A DNA stretch of 64,000 nt, from the NCBI GenBank assembly GCA_963920705.1, contig OY987226.1, forward strand, positions 23,941,636-24,005,635. The letters are read 5' to 3'. Both the position numbers and the translations under genes were made by a program. The notes beneath the pieces are model-generated. The model made no database searches, had not been told where the DNA came from, and worked only from the letters and a program-made list of their open reading frames with translations. This DNA comes from Odiellus spinosus (lineage: Eukaryota; Arthropoda; Arachnida; Opiliones; Phalangiidae). Of the stretch, positions 4,590 through 56,665 are shown piece by piece. The number at the start of each line of letters is the position of its first letter. Within the stretch, counting starts at the first letter, position 1.

Positions 4590-4779
4590 CCCTTACGGAA
4601 AAAAGTTAGTCTGATCTGAAGAGGTCTTCAAGAATGCTACAAAAGTCTTGAGGAAGTCTTTGAGACCAACCCAAGACTTCTTGACGTAATGGAAGACTCC
4701 TCCAAGACCTCTTAAGACTACATAAGACACCCAAAAGACTTCCACAAGACCTCTTAAGACTAACTTTTTTTCGTAAGGG
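4590..4779 (-). mobile_element. MITE-A copy 2 (190 bp)
   Basis: Full-length copy in inverse orientation, inserted in the right arm of the fold-back element at 2200-5035. The opposite arm provides an empty-site comparison: its complement reads through CTGTAAGCTTATC. Here CTG is followed by the MITE, then A, then TGTTAGCTTATC. That supports a 2-bp duplication of TG with one extra base at the element end. Confidence 0.9.
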
Positions 4780-5439
4780 ATGTTAGCTTATCAGTCAATA
4801 AACTAGTAACCAATTTTTAATGCAGTGTGTTTTTGATTAAACATTTTGAAAAACCTTTTCTAATGCTCATTTAATGCAATAAATATAGTAATTTATTTAT
4901 TTTGGGTTCTAAGGCATTTTTAACTTGTTTTAGCTAACTTACATTTTTCATGTTTGATGTACCGTTTACATATGAGGGAATCCTATATCTTCCTTGAATT
5001 TTTGATATGTTATAGATTGAAACATGGGCTTTCAGATGGTATATACTTTGGTACATATTTCAATTGTGGCACGGCTTCGAAGACCACCATGTTTTTATAA
5101 TTTTTCCATTTTTGGCAGTGTTCCAAGTAAAATAGCGCCACATCCGTTGGTCATACAATAAAGCTAATGCTTTTATCGTGTTCCCTGGATCAAGAACTAC
5201 CAGAAAGCTTTCTATTTGTTTAATTTTAACTTGGTATTCGAAATCCATAGATAATTATGTATATTCTACTTTTCGCGTTTATTTTGAATTCAAAGGGCAC
5301 TTTCATAATTTATAGAAATAAAACGAAACGTTCTACGCAAATTATTATTGAACTAATCTAGGCCCTACCACCCATTTGAACAGCAAATGAAAGGGTTTTT
5401 GAAATATTCATATCTTAAAATCTATATTGAATTTTGACT

Positions 5440-7083: not shown

Positions 7084-7273
7084 CCCTTACGGAAAAAAAT
7101 TAGTCTGATCTGAAGAGGTCTTCAAGAACGCTACAAAAGTCTTGGGGAAGTTTTTAAGACCTCCCAAAGACTTCTTGACGTAATGGAAGACTTCCCCAAG
7201 ACCTCTTAAGACTACATAAGACACCTGAAAGACTTCCCCAAGAGCTCTTAAGACTAACTTTTTTTGGTAAGGG
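7084..7273 (-). mobile_element. MITE-A copy 4 (190 bp)
   Basis: Full-length inverse copy between TATA on the left and TATA on the right, consistent with a 2- to 4-bp duplication. It carries the standard blocks of alternating CTTCCCCAAGACCTCTTAAG. The open frame across it is a by-product of low stop content. Confidence 0.9.
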
Positions 7274-12294: not shown

Positions 12295-13165
12295 AGTAGG
12301 TAGCGCCATCATATGATAGGCGTAAGAAGCTCGAAATATAAAATAAAATATATATGTAATAAAATTAGTCTGCTATATAGTATTTCAAATTAAAATGAGG
12401 ATATATTGCTGTTTCGATAATTGTCGTAGCGATTTTAGCTGCCAGAAGAATTTAACTTTTCATACCTTGGTACATTGGTTTACCTCAGGGATCGGTCCTC
12501 GGCCCTACACTGTTTGTGATCTTCATTAATGACCTTCCTCTGGTTATTCGAGATTCTCTCCTGAAACTCTTCGCAGATGACAATAAAGTTGGCCACAGGA
12601 TAACCACTCTTACGGACGCACACTCACTCCAAGGGGACATTAATGCTCTTGAGCGTTGGGTGTCCTCCAATGGTATGAGCTTTAACTCATCCAAATCCAT
12701 GGTGCTCCACTGTGGTCCAAACAACATTCAATTTAAGTACCGGCTTGGTGGCAAAGCTATCGAGGCCTCAACTGTAGTTTGGGACCTGGGAGTCATGCTC
12801 TCTGGGCGCGTTTTGGGCGAATCCCACAGTAAAGTGGCATCTGCCCGGGGAATGAAGGCCCTATACATGTTGCGGCGCTCCTTTTCGGACTTCAGCGCCA
12901 ACTCCTTTCAAATATTGTACCGCACGTACATCCGTCCCCACCTCGACTACTGCTCTAGTATTTGGTCGCCCCACCTGGTGAAGGACATAAACAATTTAGA
13001 ACGTGTACAGCGTTAGGCGACCAAACTTGTCTCTGGCTTGCGCCACCTACCTTACCCCGATCGTCTCAAGCGCCTCAACCTCCTATCTCTTGAAAATAGG
13101 CGTCTTCGCACGGACCTCGTGGAAACCTTTAAAATCATTCACTCCCTTTACGACGTAACACCTGG

Positions 13166-14024: not shown

Positions 14025-15204
14025 TAAAGTTTAAAAACCTGTACGAAAATAGTAATATAGTTTCTAAATTTTTCCGTTAGGTGGCAGTCTATAGTTATGT
14101 CACGCACATTTCAGTATGCCGTTCATGCAACGCATGCTTTCTTCTCCAGAGGTCCCCCTTCATCCTCCTAGCATAAAGCAGCAGTGTATCAGAGTTTAGA
14201 AAAGGACGTAGCCGCAACACTACTAGAGCTTTAAAGTATTTTCGGCGGTGCTGCACACTTTTTTGGGGGTGTGTGGGATAACTGGGGTTAGGGTATTCGT
14301 TATGTAGGGTGTTCGCTCCATCATGCACCAAGACAATGAGAAAAGAAAGTTACAAAACAGAGCAGTAAACATAATTTATCTTATTTTTACTGGGGAAATC
14401 AAGCGCTCACGAGGCAAAGTCTTTTTCAAGAAAGCACATGAGCACTGGTTTGATTGGACAATATTTTATGTTACTCTGCTCGCTGCCCGAGCGAGAGCGA
14501 GAGAAGTTAGGTTCTTAGCCAGATTCAGAGCACTCTGAGAGTGGACCACTCTGAGAATTGTATAAGTGTCTCTGAATTTCGCTGAAAACGTAATTTATCT
14601 GGAACTATAAAGTATTTTCGGCGGTGCGGCACACTTTTTTGGGGTATGTGGGGGGGGGGGGGATGATCACATTTAAATAACCATGTTCAATGGAAAATTT
14701 TAATCTGAGGGGTCAGTGGTCGACGGGACTATTCAGAAAATTCAAGGATTTTCCAAATCGTTTCTTGATACTTGAATATTAGTAAGATTAAGATTGGAAC
14801 TATAAATTTTGTAGACTGAATGTCCGAGTCATTGAGACCCAATTTATTAGTCTTTGTGAAATTGTGATTCAGAATGTATTTACAAAAACATCTTTAACCT
14901 AAAAGACGACGTGCCCTCTGGTCAATGGTCATGGCACTGTTTCTTTATTCCAGGCCAGGGGTAGCGGGTCATAGGCCCACTTTAAAAAAATATTGCTCCC
15001 ACTGTTTCAGATCCTTTTGTACGTACCGGTTTGCAGGAGCGGAAATAGGCACAAGTCGCTTGACCTTGTCCTATAAATTTTCGAAATGTCCCATAACTTT
15101 TTATTTTTGAGAGTGGATCACTGGACATTTGTCCGATAAAAAAAGTACTTCAAAAGAATTATAAATAATAGTTGTATTTATGTTTAAAAGTATTCTCTTC
15201 TTTA
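14025..15204. other. Unassigned stretch with a 47-bp direct repeat
   Basis: AAAGTATTTTCGGCGGTGC followed by GCACACTTTTTTGGGG occurs at about 14234-14281 and again at about 14611-14655 in the same orientation. This could be a target or segmental duplication around about 330 bp. No exon or TIR pair recognised. A G-run lies near 14650. Confidence 0.45.
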
Positions 15205-15573
15205 TGGCTTTTTCCAATGGGCTGCTCGGAGCAGTCCGGGAGTGCTCTGAATATTCCATTGGGAAAAAGGAGCACTCCCAAGATGAAGTAACGTCTTCCA
15301 CTGGGCTGCTCACTCTATCGCGGAGCACTCCAAGGTGCTCCAGCTTGAGAGACGGAGTAATGATTCCGGAGCACTCCTTTCTCCAATGGAAGAAAGATAG
15401 AAGTAATGAGCCACCGGCAGCCAGGTGTCTCTGCGCGAAAAGAATGACTCCGGAAAAGATGTCGTTTCCTTTGGGAGGTCGTTTCGAGACCGCTTCAAGA
15501 CCCTCGGAGCGCGAGCGTTCACGTTACAAGAAAATCTGGAGCGCTCTCGGTGCAGTCCCAATGGAAAACGCCA
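15205..15573. mobile_element. Harbinger-like MITE (369 bp, TSD TTA)
   Basis: The left end TGGCTTTTTCCAATGGG and the right end CCCAATGGAAAACGCCA are inverted repeats with one or two mismatches. TTA flanks both sides (15202-15204, 15574-15576). A 3-bp TWA target duplication is typical of PIF/Harbinger. The GC-rich interior contains several GGAGCACTCC palindromes. The 144-codon open frame across it follows repeat content and is not taken as a gene. Confidence 0.7.
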
Positions 15574-15649
15574 TTAGGTACAGCTGTGCGGCGTTACGGC
15601 GTGTATTAAGCTGAAAGACAAGGAAAACCGGCCTTAGTTCAATATCCCC

Positions 15650-15745
15650 TCCCGAGTCCCAAGAACCTACGCGATACGTAACTCGAGCATCTGTCCGGGT
15701 GCAGAAACGTAATCTTGTTGGGCACTGTAAAGAAAATAAAAAGGA
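15650..15745 (+). mobile_element. 3' tail of a truncated SINE copy
   Basis: CCGGGTGCAGAAACGTAATC...GGCACTGTAAAGAAAATAAAAAGG resembles the last part of the following SINE (ACGGGTGCAAAAACTT...CGCACCGTT then A-run). It appears to be the tail of an older copy placed head-to-tail with the next. Confidence 0.4.
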
Positions 15746-16048
15746 GCCGGGAGTGGTGGCGCACTCCTGTAAACTGGCGTCTCAGTGGCAAGGTCTGGGT
15801 ATTGTCCTGATCGAATCGTAGGTCCCTTGTCCATAGGGAGTGTTGCGAATGGTCCGCAACGGTATGGTCCTCCCTCTTCCCCTTCTCCATCCGTTGCGTG
15901 GGCAATTCCCCGTCCTCATACCTGCGTAGTTTCTAAACTCATCTGACCCCCCCCCCCCCATCAGCCATCACTCGTGGCTATGAACTAAGCCCCCCGTACG
16001 GGTGCAAAAACTTCCCTGTTACGCACCGTTAAAAAAAAAAAAAAAAAA
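15746..16048 (+). mobile_element. SINE with 7SL-like 5' end, copy 1
   Basis: Begins GCCGGGAGTGGTGGCGCA then CTCCTGTAAACTGGCG, very like the Alu-domain start of SRP (7SL) RNA, including the UGUAA of the SRP9/14-binding region. It shares about 200 bp with the copy at 16512, including GTTGCGAATGGTCCGCAAC and GGTATGGTCC, then differs in its 3' part. It ends in an A-run of about 18. A possible short flanking repeat AAAAAGG is not reliable in poly(A). Confidence 0.65.
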
Positions 16049-16511
16049 GGAAAAGGAACTGGCAATTTGGCAAACATATTTTTTTTTTTTTTGGGGGAAT
16101 TTGGGAAGAACCAAACTGACAGTGGTAATGTTGACTGATAAATTATCTAATTTATACTGTTAGGGATAACATTAGCCAACATTAAATAAAAGTTTCAATC
16201 ATTGCATGAATTAAACTGTTTGTTAGGTAAGTTAAAATGTCAATTTATTTATAAATGAATATTGCATTATTTTAAGTTTGTGTGAAGTCTCTGGAATCAA
16301 CGTAATATTTGATTGTAAGTGAATTATCAACCGAATGTCTTAGATAATAGACAAATTGAACCATGGGCCCTTAAATGATAAATTTATAATTTCTCTACCC
16401 ATGATTCAAGGAAGCCTCGTTGTACAAAGTTAAATTGAGTATTATACAAATCGAAAAATCGTCTGCTTACGCTCGCGACTTCTTGTTTCTTTAAATTAAG
16501 GCCCTCCCGCA

Positions 16512-16826
16512 AGCCGGGAGTGGTGGCGCTGCTGGCGCACTCTTATAAACTGGCGTCTCAGAGGCAGAGGTTGGGTGTTGTCCTGTTTGACCTGCACGTC
16601 CCTAACCCATAGGGACTGTTGTGAATGGTCCGCAACGGTATGGTCCTTACTCTTCCAAATCCCTTCTCCATCCATTGCGTGGGCAAATTCCCAGTCCTCA
16701 TCTCCTGCGTCGTCCCATATCCCACCTGTCCCCCCCTCCCCTTCCCAAGACTGACAACAAAATTGTACGGGCTCAAGGAACCACAAGAGGGCGCCGCAGT
16801 AGCTCATTAATCCGATTAAAAAAAAA
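16512..16826 (+). mobile_element. SINE with 7SL-like 5' end, copy 2, 14-bp target duplication
   Basis: AAGGCCCTCCCGCA is present directly before (16498-16511) and after (16827-16840) the unit. The body is about 306 bp plus a short A-tail. The 5' end is AGCCGGGAGTGGTGGCG, with a small insertion relative to copy 1, then TATAAACTGGCGTCTCAG. The perfect long duplication and A-tail show target-primed reverse transcription in trans by a LINE. The 5' similarity to 7SL RNA is seen by eye (about 22 of 27 positions against the metazoan consensus as I know it). The 3' third (GACAACAAAATTGTACGG onward) is unrelated to copy 1. Confidence 0.75.
16781..16795 (+). promoter_or_regulatory. CTCF-like motif inside the SINE
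   Basis: CCACAAGAGGGCGCC fits the core CCASNAGRGGGCGC that CTCF binds in flies and vertebrates. A related string, complement GCCACTGGAGGGCGCA, lies at about 3598-3614 in the Mutator-like element. Binding is inferred from the motif only. Confidence 0.35.
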
Positions 16827-16840
16827 AAGGCCCTCCCGCA

Positions 16841-18029
16841 GCAAAAATGCGGTTTTTGTTCAATTTCATTTAAGTTTTTAATCCGTTTAAAATTTCAACA
16901 GAGCTATGAAACTTTTCTAGCAGAATTACTGAAATCATATCTTTGAACTGGTAATTTTTTAAGATCTTGAAAAAATTAGTTATTGAGTAATTTTAGTTCT
17001 AGTTAATGTCCATTTGCATTCTCGCTTGTTCATTATAATGTAACTCGTATCAAATGTATGGGCCCGAAAATTTTTGTTCTAAGCTCTTTTCAATCACAAG
17101 TGTTGTGTCAAAGTGTTAAGATACTTTCAGAAAGATCCAATTATTTATTCGGGAGTTCGTAAGTTCAAAAGCAAATTTAGTTTTTTGAAAATTTCTACAT
17201 GATTTCATACTATTATTTTTAAAATAGTTCACATAATTTTCCCTTTACTGAAACGCTTACGAACAACTTTTAAATACAGTGCTATATTCGCCATTGAAAT
17301 TAACCTTGTGCCCAAAATATTGCAAAATCTGCTCGGGGCCACCGAATTCTGCCTTACTAATAGCAGCGATTTCTTTCCTCCGTATTACACTCTATCATCA
17401 AGGGTCCCCTTGAGCGCAATTAACCAGCACGTAAGATGTCTCATCTCAGAATAAGCTGTTAGGTCATGAAAAAGAAGGGTACCCTTCTGGACTTTTCGCT
17501 GAGGGTGGAGGGGTTTTTGGGAGGCTAAGCGTTCCAAAATTACAGCAATATTTTTGGCTAAGTAAAGAAAGCATTTTCTTTGCGCGGTCCTGAAATGTTA
17601 TAGCTGATATTGATACGGCAAAGTGACACATAATATTGAACTCAATAAAGAAAGTAGTAAACACATTTTGCGACTTCTCTTATGGCTCCTCAAGGTTTCT
17701 TAAGAGTTTCAGCGAAGTTTTGAATCTTTATCTTTGTTATTCCTCTCACTGTGAGAAGAAGAGTTTCCCAATGTGTGAAAAAAGATAAGCCCACTGTCCA
17801 AAAAGCAAAATAAACGTGCTAAAGCTGTGAAACTTTTACCAATAGTTGAAAGTCGTAAAGATATGGCAGTTTCAAAAGTGGCTCAAACCCCAAAAGTGGT
17901 TCAAACCGTGAAAGGCGTGGTTCGAACCCAGAAAGAGTAAAATCCTATAAATATCTCGTCTATTGCATCAATGAAGACCTAACCAATAAACTGATATTAT
18001 GTATAAGTAATTGATGAAAAAGATGTGCT
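16841..18029. other. Unassigned stretch with a small tandem motif
   Basis: Nothing coding recognised. Near 17868-17937 there are three degenerate units of about 22 bp built on CAAAAGTGGTTCAAACC. Confidence 0.4.
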
Positions 18030-18218
18030 CCCTTACGGAAAAAAGTTAGTCTGATCTGAAGAAGTCTTCAAGAACGCTACAAAAGTCTTGGGGAAGTCTT
18101 TAAGACCTCCCCAGACTTCTTGACGTAATGGAAGACTTCCCCAAGACCTCTTAAGACTGCATAAGACACCCGAAAGACTTCTCCAAGACCTCTTAAGACT
18201 AACTTTTTTTGGTAAGGG
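18030..18218 (-). mobile_element. MITE-A copy 5 (189 bp)
   Basis: Full-length inverse copy between CT and CT (2-bp duplication). It ends 11 bp before the MITE-B copy at 18230 and may have damaged that element's left end. Confidence 0.9.
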
Positions 18219-22540: not shown

Positions 22541-22742
22541 TATAAAACTTGCTGTTTTTGCATTGCTGGGATTTTCAAAGCTACTCCTAGTGTTCCAAGC
22601 TTAGTAAACACGTGAACGGTCGCGTTTTCGAATTTGACCGCGCGCTAAAAGTTAAAAGTTATTTTAACCCTATTTTTTTTCGCCAAGGCTTAGCCTCTTC
22701 AAAATTTAATATTTAAAGTTTTCTTTCATAATTTCCTTCATT

Positions 22743-23486
22743 ATGACTGAAATATCGGACTCTGATTCTACCCTTGACTTTACACTACCCAGCTGTTCCA
22801 CTCAACGTTCTTCGTCACAAGTTCACAGCCCTAATCCAAATCTTTCCAAGAAAACTCGGCTTACTAACCTCAAAACTCTCAAATTGGCCTCTGGTGTCAA
22901 GGTTAATATAAAGAACTCTTGCAAATCACGTATGTCTCCAAAGGTCACCACTGCTTCTACTAGTGGATTTGCTAAGCGTAACCCTATCCTGGCCTCCTGT
23001 TGCCCCATCTGCTCTCAGTCTGTAGCTAAGGACCATAAAGCCTTATTTTGTGAGATCTGCCAGTTCTGGTGTCACATCGAATGCGTTAATGTGTCTCAGG
23101 AACTTTATCACGCCCATGTCGATTCACCAAATGACAACTTTACATTCTTCTGTACCGCTTGCCTGAAACTGGGGCCCTCTCTATTATCTTCGGTGGCACA
23201 ATTATCAGACACCTTGGCTTCAGTGACTGCTCAACTTCGGGCCTTCTCTGATATCCAAAACGACATTTCTACTCTTACTTCAGAGCTACAGTCTCAGGAG
23301 GTTATTATCGCTGGTCTCGCTACTACCCTTCAACAATGTCAAAACTCCATTACCAGTCTACAAACCCATATCTCGACCTCATCATCCTCAGCAATGTCTG
23401 ATATTGCCGACCTACAATCTAAGTATCCTGACCTTGATACGAAGGTAGGCTCTCTAGGGCGGTTCTCTGACACTCTCCACCCCTAA
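22743..23486 (+). CDS. CR1-like ORF1 protein with PHD finger
   Basis: 247 residues. Residues 1-80 are Ser/Thr-rich and basic. Residues 87-140 form a C4HC3 PHD-type zinc finger (CPIC, CEIC, HIEC, CTAC). Residues 145-235 are a coiled-coil-like region rich in Leu, Ser and Gln (LSSVAQLSDTLASVTAQL). PHD-bearing ORF1 proteins of CR1-like elements are thought to bind nucleic acid or chromatin and form the ribonucleoprotein. The frame closes after DTLHP. The next bases look like continued coding in another frame, so the C-terminus may be cut by a frameshift. The start codon was chosen because upstream sequence is non-coding and AT-rich. Confidence 0.85.
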   Translation: MTEISDSDSTLDFTLPSCSTQRSSSQVHSPNPNLSKKTRLTNLKTLKLASGVKVNIKNSCKSRMSPKVTTASTSGFAKRNPILASCCPICSQSVAKDHKALFCEICQFWCHIECVNVSQELYHAHVDSPNDNFTFFCTACLKLGPSLLSSVAQLSDTLASVTAQLRAFSDIQNDISTLTSELQSQEVIIAGLATTLQQCQNSITSLQTHISTSSSSAMSDIADLQSKYPDLDTKVGSLGRFSDTLHP

Positions 23487-23550
23487 CCGAACGAGGTCAC
23501 TCCATCATTTTTGGGGCCTACAAATCTCGACTTACGACCTACTTCGCAGG

Positions 23551-26461
23551 ATGTCCAAACCATACAACGTGTTTTTGGTGAGCGCCTTGATATTAACACA
23601 AGAAAATAGTCTTCGGCCGCTCCAAAAAACTTCACCTCCCATTCTTCATTTGAATTCCATACCCACCCAGTTTCGAATTATTTACTTTAACGCTCAATCT
23701 TTATTGGGAAAATTGACTGAATTACGTGTCTTAGCCCCGACTTGGGGTGCTGATTGCATTTGCGTGACGGAATCTTGGGCTACTGCAAGTTGTGAAGAAG
23801 CCCTACTGAATTTACACGGATATACTCTTTGCAGGAAGGATCGTGTTGGAAAGAATGGGGGCGGTGTCCTTATATACGTGAAAGCTGATATCATTTTTCA
23901 TGAAATACAGTTCCAATCTCAATTTCCGGAGTCTATATGGCTCACGCTGAAGCCTCCTATGGGTGTTTCATGGCTTACACTTGGGTGTATCTATCGTGCT
24001 CCCGACTGTTCTCTCAACGACACCGTCCAGCTTTTTGACGACATCACAGGTGATTTTAACCTACCCAAAATTAAATGGCCTGATATGAGATTGAAACGTA
24101 ATGCGTCTCGTGAGCACCAGTTATTGCTTGACTGTCTTCTTCAGAATCTTCTATCGCAACACGTAACTCGACCCACTCGCTTTAGTCAATTGCGAACCCG
24201 TCGTTCAACTCCTTCTACCTTAGACTTCGTCATCACCTCCAACCTAATATCCCCTGATATCACACATTTTTTTAACGATTGGAGGAAGTGATCATCAATC
24301 CCTCAACATTATCTATCCGTTAACAGCCTGCGAAGGTTCCGTGAAGACTTTCCCTAATGACTTCGACTACTCTCGAGGCGATTATGACCAACTTAACTCT
24401 ATGGTGGCGCGTACTGACTGGTCTCCTCTAAGCGATATACCCATGGAGGAAGCATGGCAGTTTTTCAAGTCAACATTTTTTTGCCTGGTTGAATGTTGTG
24501 TTCCTTACTATGAGCCTCGACCGAAGACTTCACGCATTCGCCTTCCGAGGGCTATTAAACGAGAGGTTCGCATGAAGAGTAAGCTGTGGGAGAGGTTGCG
24601 CCATCTTGATCGAGCTGATCAATTAAATGCGTATAATTTTTCTTCTACAGCTTACAAGGATCAGGTTAAACTTGTTAAGGTCTTGGTCTCACAATTTCGT
24701 TCCGAACGCCAACGTAAGAAATTTCAGTCCGTCAAGACGAATCCCAAGGCCTTTTATCGTCAAGTTAAAAAAGAAATACGAGTTCCGAAATCAAGGCTTA
24801 ATATCAAGGTTGATGATAATCATTTGACTGATTCTGATCTCAGAATGGCTAATTGCTTTAATGACACATTCGCTCAAAACTTTAACCTTCAAGTCACTGA
24901 TGACTCGGATCTGCCTAACCTCGAAATACCTGCCATGGCAGATTATCTCCCTACCCTTAAGAAAGTACGGCTCACACTTAAAAAACTGAATGTGAAGTCT
25001 TCTTCTGGCCCTGACGCTATTACTAATCGAGCCCTGCGTAATTGCTCATCTACTCTTTTTCGTCCTCTCCACGTTTTGTTTACGACATCCCTACTTTCCG
25101 GAACCCTACCTGATGATTGGCGTATGAGACATATTACTCCCATCTACAAGAAGTCTGGAAAAAAATCCTGTGCTGCAAGTTACCGGCCAATTAGCCTCAC
25201 TTCCGCCATATGCAAGGTTTTAGAAAAATGCATTCGACTTCCACTCATTTCTCATTTGCGACCATATCTTTCCTCGTATCAACATGGATTTCTAAACAAC
25301 AAGTCTACGGTCTCCAACATGCTCTCTTCCTTGCAGGAATGGCTCGAAGCTTTCGATGCTCAGAAACGGGTTGATGTAATTTACCTTGATGTGTCCAAAG
25401 CGTTTGACACTGTCCCGCATCAACGCCTTCTCGCGAAACTGAACATATATGGCGTTACTAACAATCTTTTATCATGGATCACCGCTTTTCTATCAAATCG
25501 GCTGCAACGCGTGCGGGTTGAATCTACTCTGAGCGACCCACTCCCTGTTCACAGTGGTGTTCCTCAGGGCAGTGTTTTGGGCCCACTTTTGTTTCTAGTC
25601 TACATAAACGATCTTCCCGAGGTCATCAAGTCATCCGTTCGACTATATGCGGATGACCTTAAGATCTTTCGTACAATATCTTCGTTTGATGACGTCAGAA
25701 CACTACAGGAAGATCTCCGCCATCTAGAATCTTGGTCCATCCAGAACGCGTTGAAGTTTCATGAATCGAAAACAGTTCTTCTCAGTATCCAGGCTCGCAA
25801 GATTGACCTAACAATACCGTCGCCCTATTTTCTCTGTGGGTCAAACATCAAGAGAGTGGCTGAACACCGGGACCTTGGTTTCATTATCACCTTTAATCTT
25901 GATTTTCACGCGCATATCATGAACATTTCTAAACGAGCGAATAGTCTTCTAGCGGTCATCAAGTATAAACTGCCTGGCATGACACCTGCCTTCTTAACTA
26001 CACTATTCAACTCCTTTGTGCGCCCTCTGCTAGAGTCGGCTTCCTGTATATGGTCCCCTTATCATGTACGAGATATTAAGCTTTTGGAGGATGTTCAGGC
26101 AAGAGCATCTAAAATACCTTATTGGCTCCAAAATCTTCCTCGGTCACAACGTCTTCACCAACTTCGGTGAATCCCGCTAAAGACCCGACGGATGTTTTTG
26201 GACCTAACAACCTTATATAAATTGCTTCGTCATCCTACCCAGAGTTATTTCTCTTTCACCGCTTCGTCCATCACTACCCGGGGCACTAACCAAAAGCTGC
26301 ACCTCAGTCATTCGAAGAAAGACGCCATGAAGTTCTCTTTCTTCCGTCGCACCATCTTACCATGGAATTCCCTACCAAACGAGATTACGTCGGCTACCTC
26401 TGCCGCTTTGTTTAAGCATAAACTTAAAGACTTTTTATTGAAGAATATGACATCTACCTGA
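23551..26461 (+). pseudogene. CR1-like ORF2: endonuclease plus reverse transcriptase (frameshifted)
   Basis: Three frames together make one ORF2. 23551-24291: AP endonuclease with FNAQSL, CVTESW, GGGVLIYVK, GCIYRAP and GDFNLP; about 20 residues are missing before GDFNLP. A frameshift near 24290 separates it from 24341-26170: reverse transcriptase with IYLDVSKAFDTVPH, SGVPQGSVLGPLLF and the catalytic YADD (near 25650), then RPLLESASCIWSP. A second frameshift near 26165 leads to 26192-26461, the C-terminal FFRRTILPWNSLP region typical of CR1/Jockey relatives. The enzyme would perform target-primed reverse transcription in the nucleus, but this copy cannot be translated whole. Confidence 0.88.
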
Positions 26462-26753: not shown

Positions 26754-26882
26754 TGAACAATGGCTATGGTTGTACCTACTAAAGTTGCAAAAGCAAAGAA
26801 GAAGAAAATCAGGGACAAATTAAAGACGCTCTGCGATGAAGAAGTCGAGCTATGTCATGTCTTACAGCAGTATGTCTCGGAG
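26754..26882 (+). CDS. Tudor-like protein gene, exon 1 (first coding exon)
   Basis: A pyrimidine-rich tract and TTAG precede 26754. An in-frame TGA at 26754-26756 and the ATG at 26760 mark the start, so there is a non-coding exon upstream. The coding part is 123 nt (41 codons) ending SE before a strong GTAAGT donor, phase 0. The peptide is basic (KAKKKKIRDK) then amphipathic (LCDEEVELCHVLQQY), like the beginning of a coiled coil after a B-box. Together with five further exons the gene encodes about 431 residues in this window. The last exon contains a Tudor-domain start, so I propose a germline Tudor protein of RNF17/Qin type; these help piRNA pathway partners assemble in nuage. No RING finger is present, and identity rests on domain logic, not a database match. 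Confidence 0.6.
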
Positions 26883-29612: not shown

Positions 29613-30131
29613 CCCTTACCAAAAAAAAAGTTAGTCTTAAGAGGTCTTGGGGAAGTCTTTCGGGTGTCTTATGTAGTCTTAAGAGGTCTTGGGGAAGTCA
29701 TTCGGGTGTCTTATGTATTCTTAAGAGGTCTTGGGGAAGTCTTCAATTATATCAAGAAGGCTTGGGGAGGTCTTCAATTATGTCAAGAAGGCTTGGGGAG
29801 GTCTTCAATTATGCCAAGAAGGCTTGGGGAGGTCTTCAATTATGTAAAGAAGGCTTGGGGAGGTCTTCAATTATGTCAAGAAGGCTTGGGGAGGTCTTCA
29901 ATTATGTCAAGAAGGCTTGGGGAGGTCTTCAATTATGTCAAGAAGGCTTGGGGAGGTCTTCAATTATGTCAAGAAGGCTTGGGGAGGTCTTCAATTATGT
30001 CAAGAAGGCTTGGGGAGGTCTTCAATTATGTCAAGAAGGCTTGGGGAGGTCTTCAATTATGTAAAGAAGGCTTGGGGAAGTCTTAAAGAAGAGGTGAGGA
30101 CTTCTTCAGATAAGACTTTTTTCCTAACGGG
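29613..30131 (+). mobile_element. MITE-A copy 6, expanded to 519 bp by internal tandem amplification
   Basis: Starts CCCTTACC with a long A-run and ends CAGATAAGACTTTTTTCCTAACGGG, so both MITE-A ends are present though the right one is mutated. Inside are two 42-bp units (AAGAGGTCTTGGGGAAGTC...TATGTAGTCTT) then eleven 31-bp units. A poly(A) run of about 28 lies just upstream. All forward frames stay open because the repeat contains no stop; I do not treat them as genes. Confidence 0.9.
29741..30081 (+). repeat. Minisatellite, 31-bp unit x 11, born inside MITE-A
   Basis: CTTCAATTAT recurs at 29741, 29772, 29803 and every 31 bp to 30051. Units differ at only a few positions (TATC, TGCC or TGTA variants of TGTC). 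The unit corresponds to CTTCCATTACGTCAAGAAG plus TCTTGGGGAGGT of the normal MITE. Confidence 0.95.
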
Positions 30132-42222: not shown

Positions 42223-42412
42223 CCCTTACCAAAAAAAGTTAGTCTTAAGAGGTCTTGAGGAAGTCTTTCGGGTGTCTTATGTAGTCTTGAGAGGTCTTGG
42301 GGAAGTCTTCCATTACGTCAAGAAGTCTTGGGGAGGTTTTAAAGACTTCCCCAAGACTTTTGTAGCGTTCTTGAAGACCTCTTCAGATCAGACTAACTTT
42401 TTTCCGTAAGGG
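42223..42412 (+). mobile_element. MITE-A copy 8 (190 bp)
   Basis: Full-length, forward orientation, AT on both sides. A clean reference copy: CCCTTACC end, two AAGAGGTCTTG blocks, CATTACGTCAAGAAG centre, then inverted CTTCCCCAAGAC and CCTCTTCAGATCAGAC. Confidence 0.92.
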
Positions 42413-42712: not shown

Positions 42713-42902
42713 CCCTTACGGAAAAAAGTTAAGTCTGATCTGAAGGCGTCTTCAAGAACACTACAAAGTCTTGGGGAAGTCTTTAAGACTTCCCCAAGAC
42801 TTCTTGATGTAGTGGAAGACTTCCCCAAGACCTCTTTAGACTAAATAAGACACCAGAAAGACTTCCCCAAGACCTCTTAAGACTAACTTTTTTTGGTAAG
42901 GG
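42713..42902 (-). mobile_element. MITE-A copy 9 (190 bp)
   Basis: Inverse orientation relative to copy 8, 300 bp away in the same host element. Flanked by TACTA on both sides; since other copies share only two bases, TA is probably the true duplication. Confidence 0.92.
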
Positions 42903-47625: not shown

Positions 47626-47815
47626 CCCTTACCAAAAAAAGTTAGTCTAAAGAGGTCTTGGGGAAGTCTTTCAGGCGTCTTATGCAGTCTTAAGAGGTCT
47701 TGGGGAAGTCTTCCATTATGTAAAGAAGTCTTGTGGAAGTCTTAATGACTTCCCCAAGACTTTTGTAGTGTTCTTGAAGACCTCTTCAGATCAGACTAAC
47801 TTTTTTTCGTAAGGG
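47626..47815 (+). mobile_element. MITE-A copy 10 (190 bp)
   Basis: Full-length forward copy with TA on both sides. Confidence 0.92.
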
Positions 47816-50239: not shown

Positions 50240-50930
50240 CCTTAAACTTACTTGTCGAATCAATCTCTCCAAATAGGCTTTCCCCCTTGCAGGTTCGATA
50301 ACCGAGCTAGTGTACTGATCTACCAGATTGAATTACCTTCCCAATACACCAGCGCTAATTAGAAAATATTAAAAGTAATAAATAATTAGGTAAATTAAGA
50401 ATTCTCGGCAAAGAAGTTAAAATATCAAGACCGAGTGGTAGTAGGATCTAAACTCAGACTAGAACTCATAACTCCCCCTTGCAGGTTCGATAACCGAGCT
50501 AGTGTACTGATCTACCAGATTGAATTACCTTCCCAATACACCAGCGCTAATTAGAAAATATTAAAAGTAATAAATAATTAGGTAAATTAAGAATTCTCAG
50601 CAAAGAAGTTAAAATATCAAGACCGAGTGGTAGTAGGATCTAAACTCAGACTAGAACTCATAACTCAAAAGACTTTATTCTATTAACTGCTAACATGAAT
50701 CTCTTTAAAAGATTCATGAGATACAATACAATTTTAAAACAATAAAATCATATATCTATTAAGGAGAGATATACCTGTACAATTAAAAATGATAATTACA
50801 AATCTAAACAAGGGGAATATTGCGATTGCCCTCTGATCCTAGGCTTAGAGGCTTCTAGTTCTTCTGTCCAACTTCCTTCCCTAGACCATGTTCCGATTAT
50901 TAGGATTCCTAATTCTGTGACGATGATTTT
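50240..50930. mobile_element. Single arm of the 57700-59480 fold-back family with a fresh 192-bp tandem duplication
   Basis: GGTTCGATAACCGAGCTAGT, TGATCTACCAGATTGAATTA, GGAGAGATATACCTG and CATGTTCCGATTAT correspond in order to the left arm at 57810-58200. 50281-50472 is repeated as 50473-50664 with one visible difference (TCTCGGC against TCTCAGC), so the duplication is recent. Confidence 0.75.
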
Positions 50931-56119: not shown

Positions 56120-56665
56120 AAGGGAGAATTGACGAATTCGAAATTTCCATACTCATAACCCAACTTCCAGGGGCTACGCCATTCGGGGTACAAATATATT
56201 GATGAATTATCAAAATAGATGGCGCGCCTGCGCCTCACTCTATCTCTCGCTCTCGTACCTATCCACACATTACACCCGTTGATATGGGAAACGCGTCGAG
56301 GGGAGGAATTATCGATCGCCCAGTTTGTCTCTCTCGTCATAGCGTAGCCAATCAGAATAGGCCCTTACCAAAAAAGTTATTCTTAAGAGGTCTTGGGGAA
56401 GTCTTTCAGGTGTCTTATGTAGTCTTAAGAGGTCTTGGGGGAAGTCTCTCATTATGTCAATAATTTTTGAGGAAGTCTTAAAGACTTCCCCAAGACTTTT
56501 GTAATGTTCTTGAAGACCTCTTCAGTTCAGTCTAACTTTTTTCCGTAAGGGGGATCAGAATGGGAACTACAATACTGACATATCTGAAGAGATCGGCGCG
56601 TAAAGAGTGTACCCCAATGGCGCGTTGCCCCTGCAAGTTACTCTTCAATTTCTTCTACGAAGCTT
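56120..56665. mobile_element. TIR element interrupted by MITE-A copy 12
   Basis: AACTTCCAGGGGCTACGCCA at about 56160, with GGGGTACA after it, pairs with the complement of TGTACCCCAATGGCGCGTTG and CCCCTGCAAGTT near 56617-56650. 56362-56551 is a full MITE-A. A partial relative is at 33530. Confidence 0.6.
56362..56551 (+). mobile_element. MITE-A copy 12 (190 bp)
   Basis: Full-length forward copy with GG on both sides. ATCAGAAT also occurs on both sides, slightly offset (56351-56358 and 56554-56561), so a longer duplication or local rearrangement is possible. Confidence 0.9.

Follow-up and report, generated by a model that had tools for sequence, protein, structure and literature searches.

SINEs derived from 7SL RNA

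Well-defined SINEs derived from 7SL RNA have been recorded in primates, rodents and hagfishes, the only groups named in the accessible parts of a recent account (Kojima 2024, PMC10886601). The hagfish family was presented, in the sections available, as the first evident SINE1 outside Euarchontoglires (Kojima 2020, PMC7245038). In arthropods, a 2019 survey listed 'Alu' in 48 genomes, the basis being RepeatMasker annotation together with an AluJo profile that was aligned to canonical Alu (PMC6327564). Three other papers, as far as their available text goes, contain 7SL only as background or in references (PMC9783078, PMC3160391, PMC8010984).

Here we describe a family encountered in a stretch of 64,000 nucleotides (the window), which lies on contig C2 of a host assembly of 443,074,358 bases in 286 contigs. 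The evidence makes it very probable that this is an arthropod SINE family in which the 5' Alu-domain end of the host 7SL RNA is followed by a structured body unrelated to it and by a 3' tail resembling those of LINEs. It resembles SINE1-1_EBu of the hagfish Eptatretus burgeri in its 7SL head with an Alu-domain fold, the deletion of the middle of 7SL, the non-7SL 3' part, the young copies and duplications of similar length (~17 bp in hagfish) (PMC7245038). In SINE1-1_EBu, however, 7SL can be recognised in the 5' 96 nt and in a 3' part, and the tail is of RTE origin and carries AAC repeats, according to the portions available, whereas here the homology ends near nt 44, several tails and an A-tail occur, the host is an arthropod and the body forms a paired structure of its own (PMC7245038). 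With Alu and B1, the SINE1 elements of Euarchontoglires, the family shares the 7SL Alu-domain head, the A-tail and the target-site duplications. Those two elements contain nothing but 7SL sequence and are mobilised by L1 (PMC7245038), while the body and tails described here are not 7SL-like. The marsupial P7SL_MD also has the 7SL start, the A-tail and multiplication by retroposition, but it comprises full-length 7SL retrocopies, whereas the present elements have no S domain and carry a new body and tail (PMC7245038). Finally, the 2019 survey likewise claims an Alu-type SINE in arthropods, although its available passages come without a comparison to host 7SL, subfamilies or duplications (PMC6327564).

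The preliminary description of the locus had named primates, rodents and tree shrews as the holders of well-known 7SL SINEs. To these the hagfish family published in 2020 (PMC7245038) has to be added. A real 7SL-headed SINE of this kind may already have been catalogued, for example in Repbase or Dfam, since RepeatMasker-type surveys list Alu in arthropods. We regard this as unlikely, though with a chance large enough to be kept in mind, given the three groups named by Kojima (2024) and a literature search that returned no characterised invertebrate 7SL-derived SINE; most subscription papers and Repbase/Dfam lay outside the scope of that search, and priority is unproven.

Two SINE copies in the window

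The flagged element, a SINE at 16498–16840 with a perfect 14-bp duplication and an A-tail, was borne out. The 14-mer AAGGCCCTCCCGCA occurs exactly twice in the window, as the 5' duplication at 16498–16511 (+) and the 3' duplication at 16827–16840 (+), and encloses copy 2 at 16513–16826 (+). This copy ends in a run of A's, from which the first two A's of the duplication are indistinguishable, so that 12 bp are unambiguous. Its head GCCGGGAGTGGTGGCGC occupies 16513–16529 and is followed by a 9-nt insertion TGCTGGCGC in the head hairpin (16530–16538, +), placed by inspection of the alignment with copy 1 and present in 0/23 aligned heads of the A2 set, which excludes copy 2. The tail, assigned to class A (16704–16816, +), matches class-A tails at other loci and has a weak terminal hairpin (GGGCU ... 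AGCUC) before the A-run; the last 60 nt fold at -9.8 kcal/mol.

Copy 1, with a tail of class B, lies upstream at 15746–16048 (+) including its A-tail (15746–16047 by nhmmer). The A-tail itself was read from the sequence at 16031–16048 (+) and is preceded by a 3' hairpin (15999–16028, +) that has a similar counterpart in tail C; the last 60 nt of this copy fold at -13.7 kcal/mol. The flanks of copy 1 are A-rich, with GGA common to both, and a candidate duplication is ambiguous there. Both copies have the same orientation and are 80.75% identical over 213 alignment columns; they share the first ~210 bp and diverge at a C-rich stretch into different tails. With R1, a covariance model of 23 SINE heads, copy 2 scored 166.2 bits and copy 1 scored 214.1 bits, the latter being among the model's own sequences. 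Of the strings quoted earlier, those with GCGCA and CTCCTGTAAACTGGC belong to copy 1 (15746–16048).

Directly upstream of copy 1, the stretch 15646–15742 shows a weak likeness to the class-B tail (nhmmer E 1.2). A genome search with 15640–15745 matched only itself.

Several other features were observed in the window. A repeat of ~190 bp is present in at least 7 copies, about 87–96% identical (4590–4781, 7084–7273, 18030–18218, 42223–42412, 42713–42902, 47626–47815 and 56362–56551), and looks like a short inverted-repeat DNA transposon with CCCTTAC.. ends. A 31-bp part of it is amplified about 11.7-fold at 29723–30084. At 50281–50666, a 192-bp unit forms two tandem repeats (99%), and at 26760–26882 an exon-like stretch comprises a T-rich acceptor, an ATG, ~41 Lys-rich codons and then GTAAGT.

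Origin of the head

Copy 1 matched the Metazoa_SRP model RF00017 with 40.7 bits in searches over 4227 Rfam families (E 1.9e-8 in a 2.6-kb search; E 4.6e-7, the top line, over the whole window). This score, obtained with open thresholds, lies below the curated Rfam cut-off of 70 bits, so the default search of the window at curated cut-offs gave no matches. The alignment runs from the first to the last model position with a large S-domain gap. The SRP Alu-domain-like head of copy 1 covers 15746–15918 (+), with a helix-5-like closing stem and another body in place of the S domain. Copy 2 on its own did not match RF00017 at E ≤ 10, and the fold of minimum energy predicted for it differs from the Alu fold (z -1.44; 13/200 shuffles as good), while copy 1 folds somewhat better than its shuffles (3/200 as good). 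On these two points the preliminary reading of the flagged element needs correction; copy 2 is a derived member of the family. Among 18 loci drawn from the 39 further SINE loci (L002–L008, L035–L066), RF00017 matched 13 in cmscan at E ≤ 0.01 (35–45.1 bits), and no match was obtained at L002, L036, L040, L052 and L055.

On the host genome, the same model recovered the host's own 7SL genes, with a best score of 228.2 bits and all 26 scored places above the cut-off (26 scored of 2761 candidates). These genes are arranged as a tandem array, L011–L034 (G000:C4:16573823-16627040), which contains 24/26 of the scored matches. Counting scored units only, 20/23 steps between neighbours are near multiples of 457 bp.

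In the reverse direction, R1 was run on the window and 6/26 of the 7SL loci. It found both window copies and the host 7SL loci (29.6–40.9 bits, best E 5.9e-9), the 18 matches on the latter representing 15 distinct places, as L021 and L034 overlap. The consensus of the young subfamily C, compared with the own 7SL consensus without gaps, agrees at 24/27 positions over nt 1–27 and at 33/44 over nt 1–44, compared with 21/27 and 25/44 for human 7SL. The preliminary description had doubted a 7SL origin if the match to the species' own RNA ended at about 20 nt; it continues past that point. The homologous stretch corresponds to 15746–15789 (+) in copy 1, which matches the host locus L011 locally over 37 nt (score 44). 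In nt 1–60 of the SINE, the local score against own 7SL was 39, a value that none of 1000 dinucleotide shuffles reached. Neither nt 60–190 (234/1000 shuffles as high) nor the tail (820/1000) rose above shuffles in this comparison, and the body showed no similarity above shuffles to own or human 7SL. The best hint of likeness past nt 44, at nt 51–100 of copy 2 (40/1000 shuffles), was not counted as evidence. Judged from these alignments, homology to 7SL ends near nt 44, and beyond that point only a helix-5-like pairing remains. Within nt 1–44 the 7SL origin of the head is clear, and the comparisons support its derivation from the host's own RNA.

No tRNA or 5S family matched at E ≤ 10 in 15000–17600 or in the flagged stretch (Rfam), and ARAGORN found 0 tRNAs in the window. 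A tRNA or 5S head, as in SINE2 or SINE3, was ruled out on these grounds, and the better fit to such a model considered earlier was not seen.

Two other sources of the likeness deserve consideration. A head of different origin could have come to resemble the Alu domain by convergence, a reading to which the shortness of the homology (44 nt) and the purely structural character of the remainder lend some room. It is nevertheless improbable in view of the identical start point, the closer agreement of the hairpin letters with own 7SL (33/44) than with human 7SL (25/44), the model matches in both directions and the lack of any tRNA or 5S match. Contamination or an artefact, by which Alu of a primate or B1 of a rodent would have entered the assembly, is a doubt to which reports such as the survey of 48 arthropod genomes are open, as judged from its available passages (PMC6327564). 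In the present case this is hardly credible: the head is nearer to host than to human 7SL by the same counts, and the copies are spread over many contigs and have duplications of their own.

RNA structure and putative promoter

RNAalifold, applied to 23 copies with no SRP input, returned helices 2, 3 and 4 arranged as in the Alu 5' domain; the covariation term was nil (0.06). The SRP model additionally aligns a helix-5-like stem closed by the 3' arm, and the RF00017 alignments of copy 1 and of the matching loci skip the S domain. In the consensus structure, 96.7% of cells pair. Double changes were found in 11 cells against a shuffled mean of 4.2 (0/500), with at most 3 when partners were slid, and in 4 pairs against 2.1 (17/500), the tested structure having been derived from the very same sequences; further pair types showed no excess over shuffles (386/500). 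The strongest covarying pair, supported by 7 sequences, sits in the body, outside the 7SL part. The alignments and predicted structures indicate an Alu-domain fold that was kept while the S domain was lost, with modest covariation support.

A B-box-like site, TGATCGAATCG, was observed at 15808–15818 (+), nt 63–73 of copy 1, and could be a Pol III promoter element. The match is weak, with 8/11 positions agreeing with a B-box consensus, and the site also fits an A-box pattern at 10/11. Subfamily C likewise has an 8/11 site. In copy 2, no B-box-like site was present at the corresponding place, the best being 7/11 elsewhere. All sites from the box scan were weak, and the 7SL position showed no clear A box. 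A six-frame genome search for SRP14 yielded no match at E ≤ 0.001, and control genomes likewise gave none.

Dispersal, target-site duplications and age of the family

With copy 2 as query, all 40 scored places in the genome matched, one being the query itself (40 scored of 389 candidates), and the elements form a dispersed SINE family in the host genome. In an automatic scan, exact duplications of 9 bp or more were found around 18/41 copies, compared with 7/2000 mispaired-flank controls; the 41 comprise 39 fetched and 2 window copies, a few of which are segmental duplicates of one another. The duplications are about 13 bp long, and the copies have common 5' starts. The copies are thus dispersed, bounded by target-site duplications and provided with a 3' A-tail, as expected of a SINE, and the earlier claim of retroposition is confirmed. 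Flanks are segmentally shared among L003–L005, between L007 and L008, and among L040, L042, L043 and L044. Segmental duplication as the sole cause was ruled out, because most other copies have their own flanks.

Of 194 candidates returned for a 103-base query from tail C, 40 were scored; 22 of them are 100% and 18 are 99% identical. All 33 of those examined beyond the earlier copies carry the 7SL head. The start pattern recognised it in 29/33; of the rest, L087 and L096 are truncated at the 5' end, and L093 and L100 are near-complete copies whose start has a changed base. Exact duplications of at least 9 bp flank 27/29 young copies, and L070 and L091 have near-duplications by eye. The duplication begins with A in 23/23 listed young copies; its overlap with the A-tail accounts for part of this pattern, and nothing about the nick site can be read from it.

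Subfamily C (n = 38, these 29 and nine earlier copies) lies on average 0.49% from its consensus, gaps counted. The largest divergence is 5.1%, and 13 copies are identical to the consensus. It is the youngest subfamily seen and was very recently amplified; such near-identity is a sign of activity that is very recent and may be continuing. The differing flanks and duplications of the young copies argue against assembly duplicates of a single insertion. At L077 (G000:C8), the 3' duplication of one young copy directly abuts the head of another copy.

Retrocopied 7SL pseudogenes like the marsupial P7SL_MD, which do not constitute a separate SINE family, would also have a head starting at 7SL nt 1, and A-tails and duplications occur in retropseudogenes as they do here. 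We consider this very improbable, as the S domain is absent, the copies have a common body with no detectable 7SL similarity, and the recurrent tail classes, subfamily-specific letters and 38 copies near one consensus indicate a family in its own right.

A 90-kb sample (18 stretches of 5 kb) contained 0 SINE copies, so two copies in 64 kb are atypical and the family is dispersed rather than dense. Exact-pattern scans of the viral_contigs and genome_contigs collections gave no matches; these collections may omit the host genome.

Tails and the partner LINE

Unrelated 3' parts, of at least two kinds, follow the same head: class A, in copy 2 and its relatives, and classes B, C and D. Tails C and D have their last ~40 nt in common (score 63), and B and D are weakly alike there (score 22). 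The folded tail ends form hairpins, and the stems of B (CGG-UGC/GCA-CCG) and C (CGG-CGU/ACG-CCG) show, by inspection, a compensated difference. The tails are exchangeable.

The partner LINE was not found among the tail-C places, as 33/33 of those examined carry a SINE head, and the LINE remnants recognised in the window with Pfam (12456–13013 and 22710–26167) are without SINE tails. The LINE at 22710–26170 has a PHD finger in its first ORF, followed by endonuclease and reverse transcriptase, with broken frames. A second reverse-transcriptase fragment, at 12456–13013, ends in an ATT-repeat tail near 14026.

Identity of the host

The mitochondrial genes of the host were identified on contig C286. 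COX1 (Pfam COX1, 440.9 bits) contains 10 internal TGA codons. In the 4,338 of 16,074 bases covered, translation with the invertebrate mitochondrial code (table 5) gave open reading frames for ND2, COX1, COX2 and part of ATP6, all on the same strand; ND2, COX2 and ATP6 were presumptively named by reading of the proteins. The mitochondrial modes of ARAGORN gave trnM, trnW, trnC and trnY (both reverse), trnK and trnD, in the order trnM-ND2-trnW-(C)-(Y)-COX1-COX2-trnK-trnD. A trnV inside COX1, reported in one ARAGORN mode, was taken as false. COX2 starts 3 nt past the last COX1 codon read, which leaves no space for a tRNA. We take this gene order to be the ancestral arthropod one, lacking the tRNA-Leu between COX1 and COX2 that presumably marks Pancrustacea. 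Code and order together indicate an arthropod, probably outside Pancrustacea, and because the arthropod order lacks that tRNA-Leu, the host is probably a chelicerate or a myriapod. The invertebrate host assumed earlier is in agreement with these genes.

Contig G000:C17 (L068 and other places) contains 9/13 of the COX1 matches, several with in-frame TAG or TAA; these are probably nuclear mitochondrial copies.

Proposed origin and significance

The family probably arose by fusion of an Alu-domain 5' end, taken from the host's own 7SL RNA, with an unrelated body and a LINE-like tail. RNA polymerase III would transcribe the SINE from a 7SL-type internal promoter, and the Alu fold may bind SRP9/14 and thereby bring the SINE RNA to ribosomes. 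A LINE reverse transcriptase would presumably recognise the 3' hairpin and the A-tail and copy the SINE RNA into nicked DNA by target-primed reverse transcription. With exchangeable tails, a single head could make use of different LINEs.

We consider it likely, with less assurance than the composition of the family itself, that a 7SL-derived SINE lineage arose independently in this arthropod, which is likely a chelicerate or myriapod, and that the lineage is probably active to this day. No SINE1 outside vertebrates would have been well characterised before it, its Alu-domain head would move between several LINE-like tails, and the Alu strategy would have originated independently for a third time. 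Since the near-identical copies speak for very recent activity, insertions could be useful for marking populations. SINEs with tRNA heads are widespread, whereas the arthropod family would repeat the Alu strategy independently, and it makes testable whether the Alu fold itself, through SRP9/14 and ribosome docking, aids the use of LINE machinery by SINEs. If the proposed lineage is real, retroposition would generally favour the SRP Alu fold as a vehicle, and this use of the fold would not be peculiar to mammalian L1.
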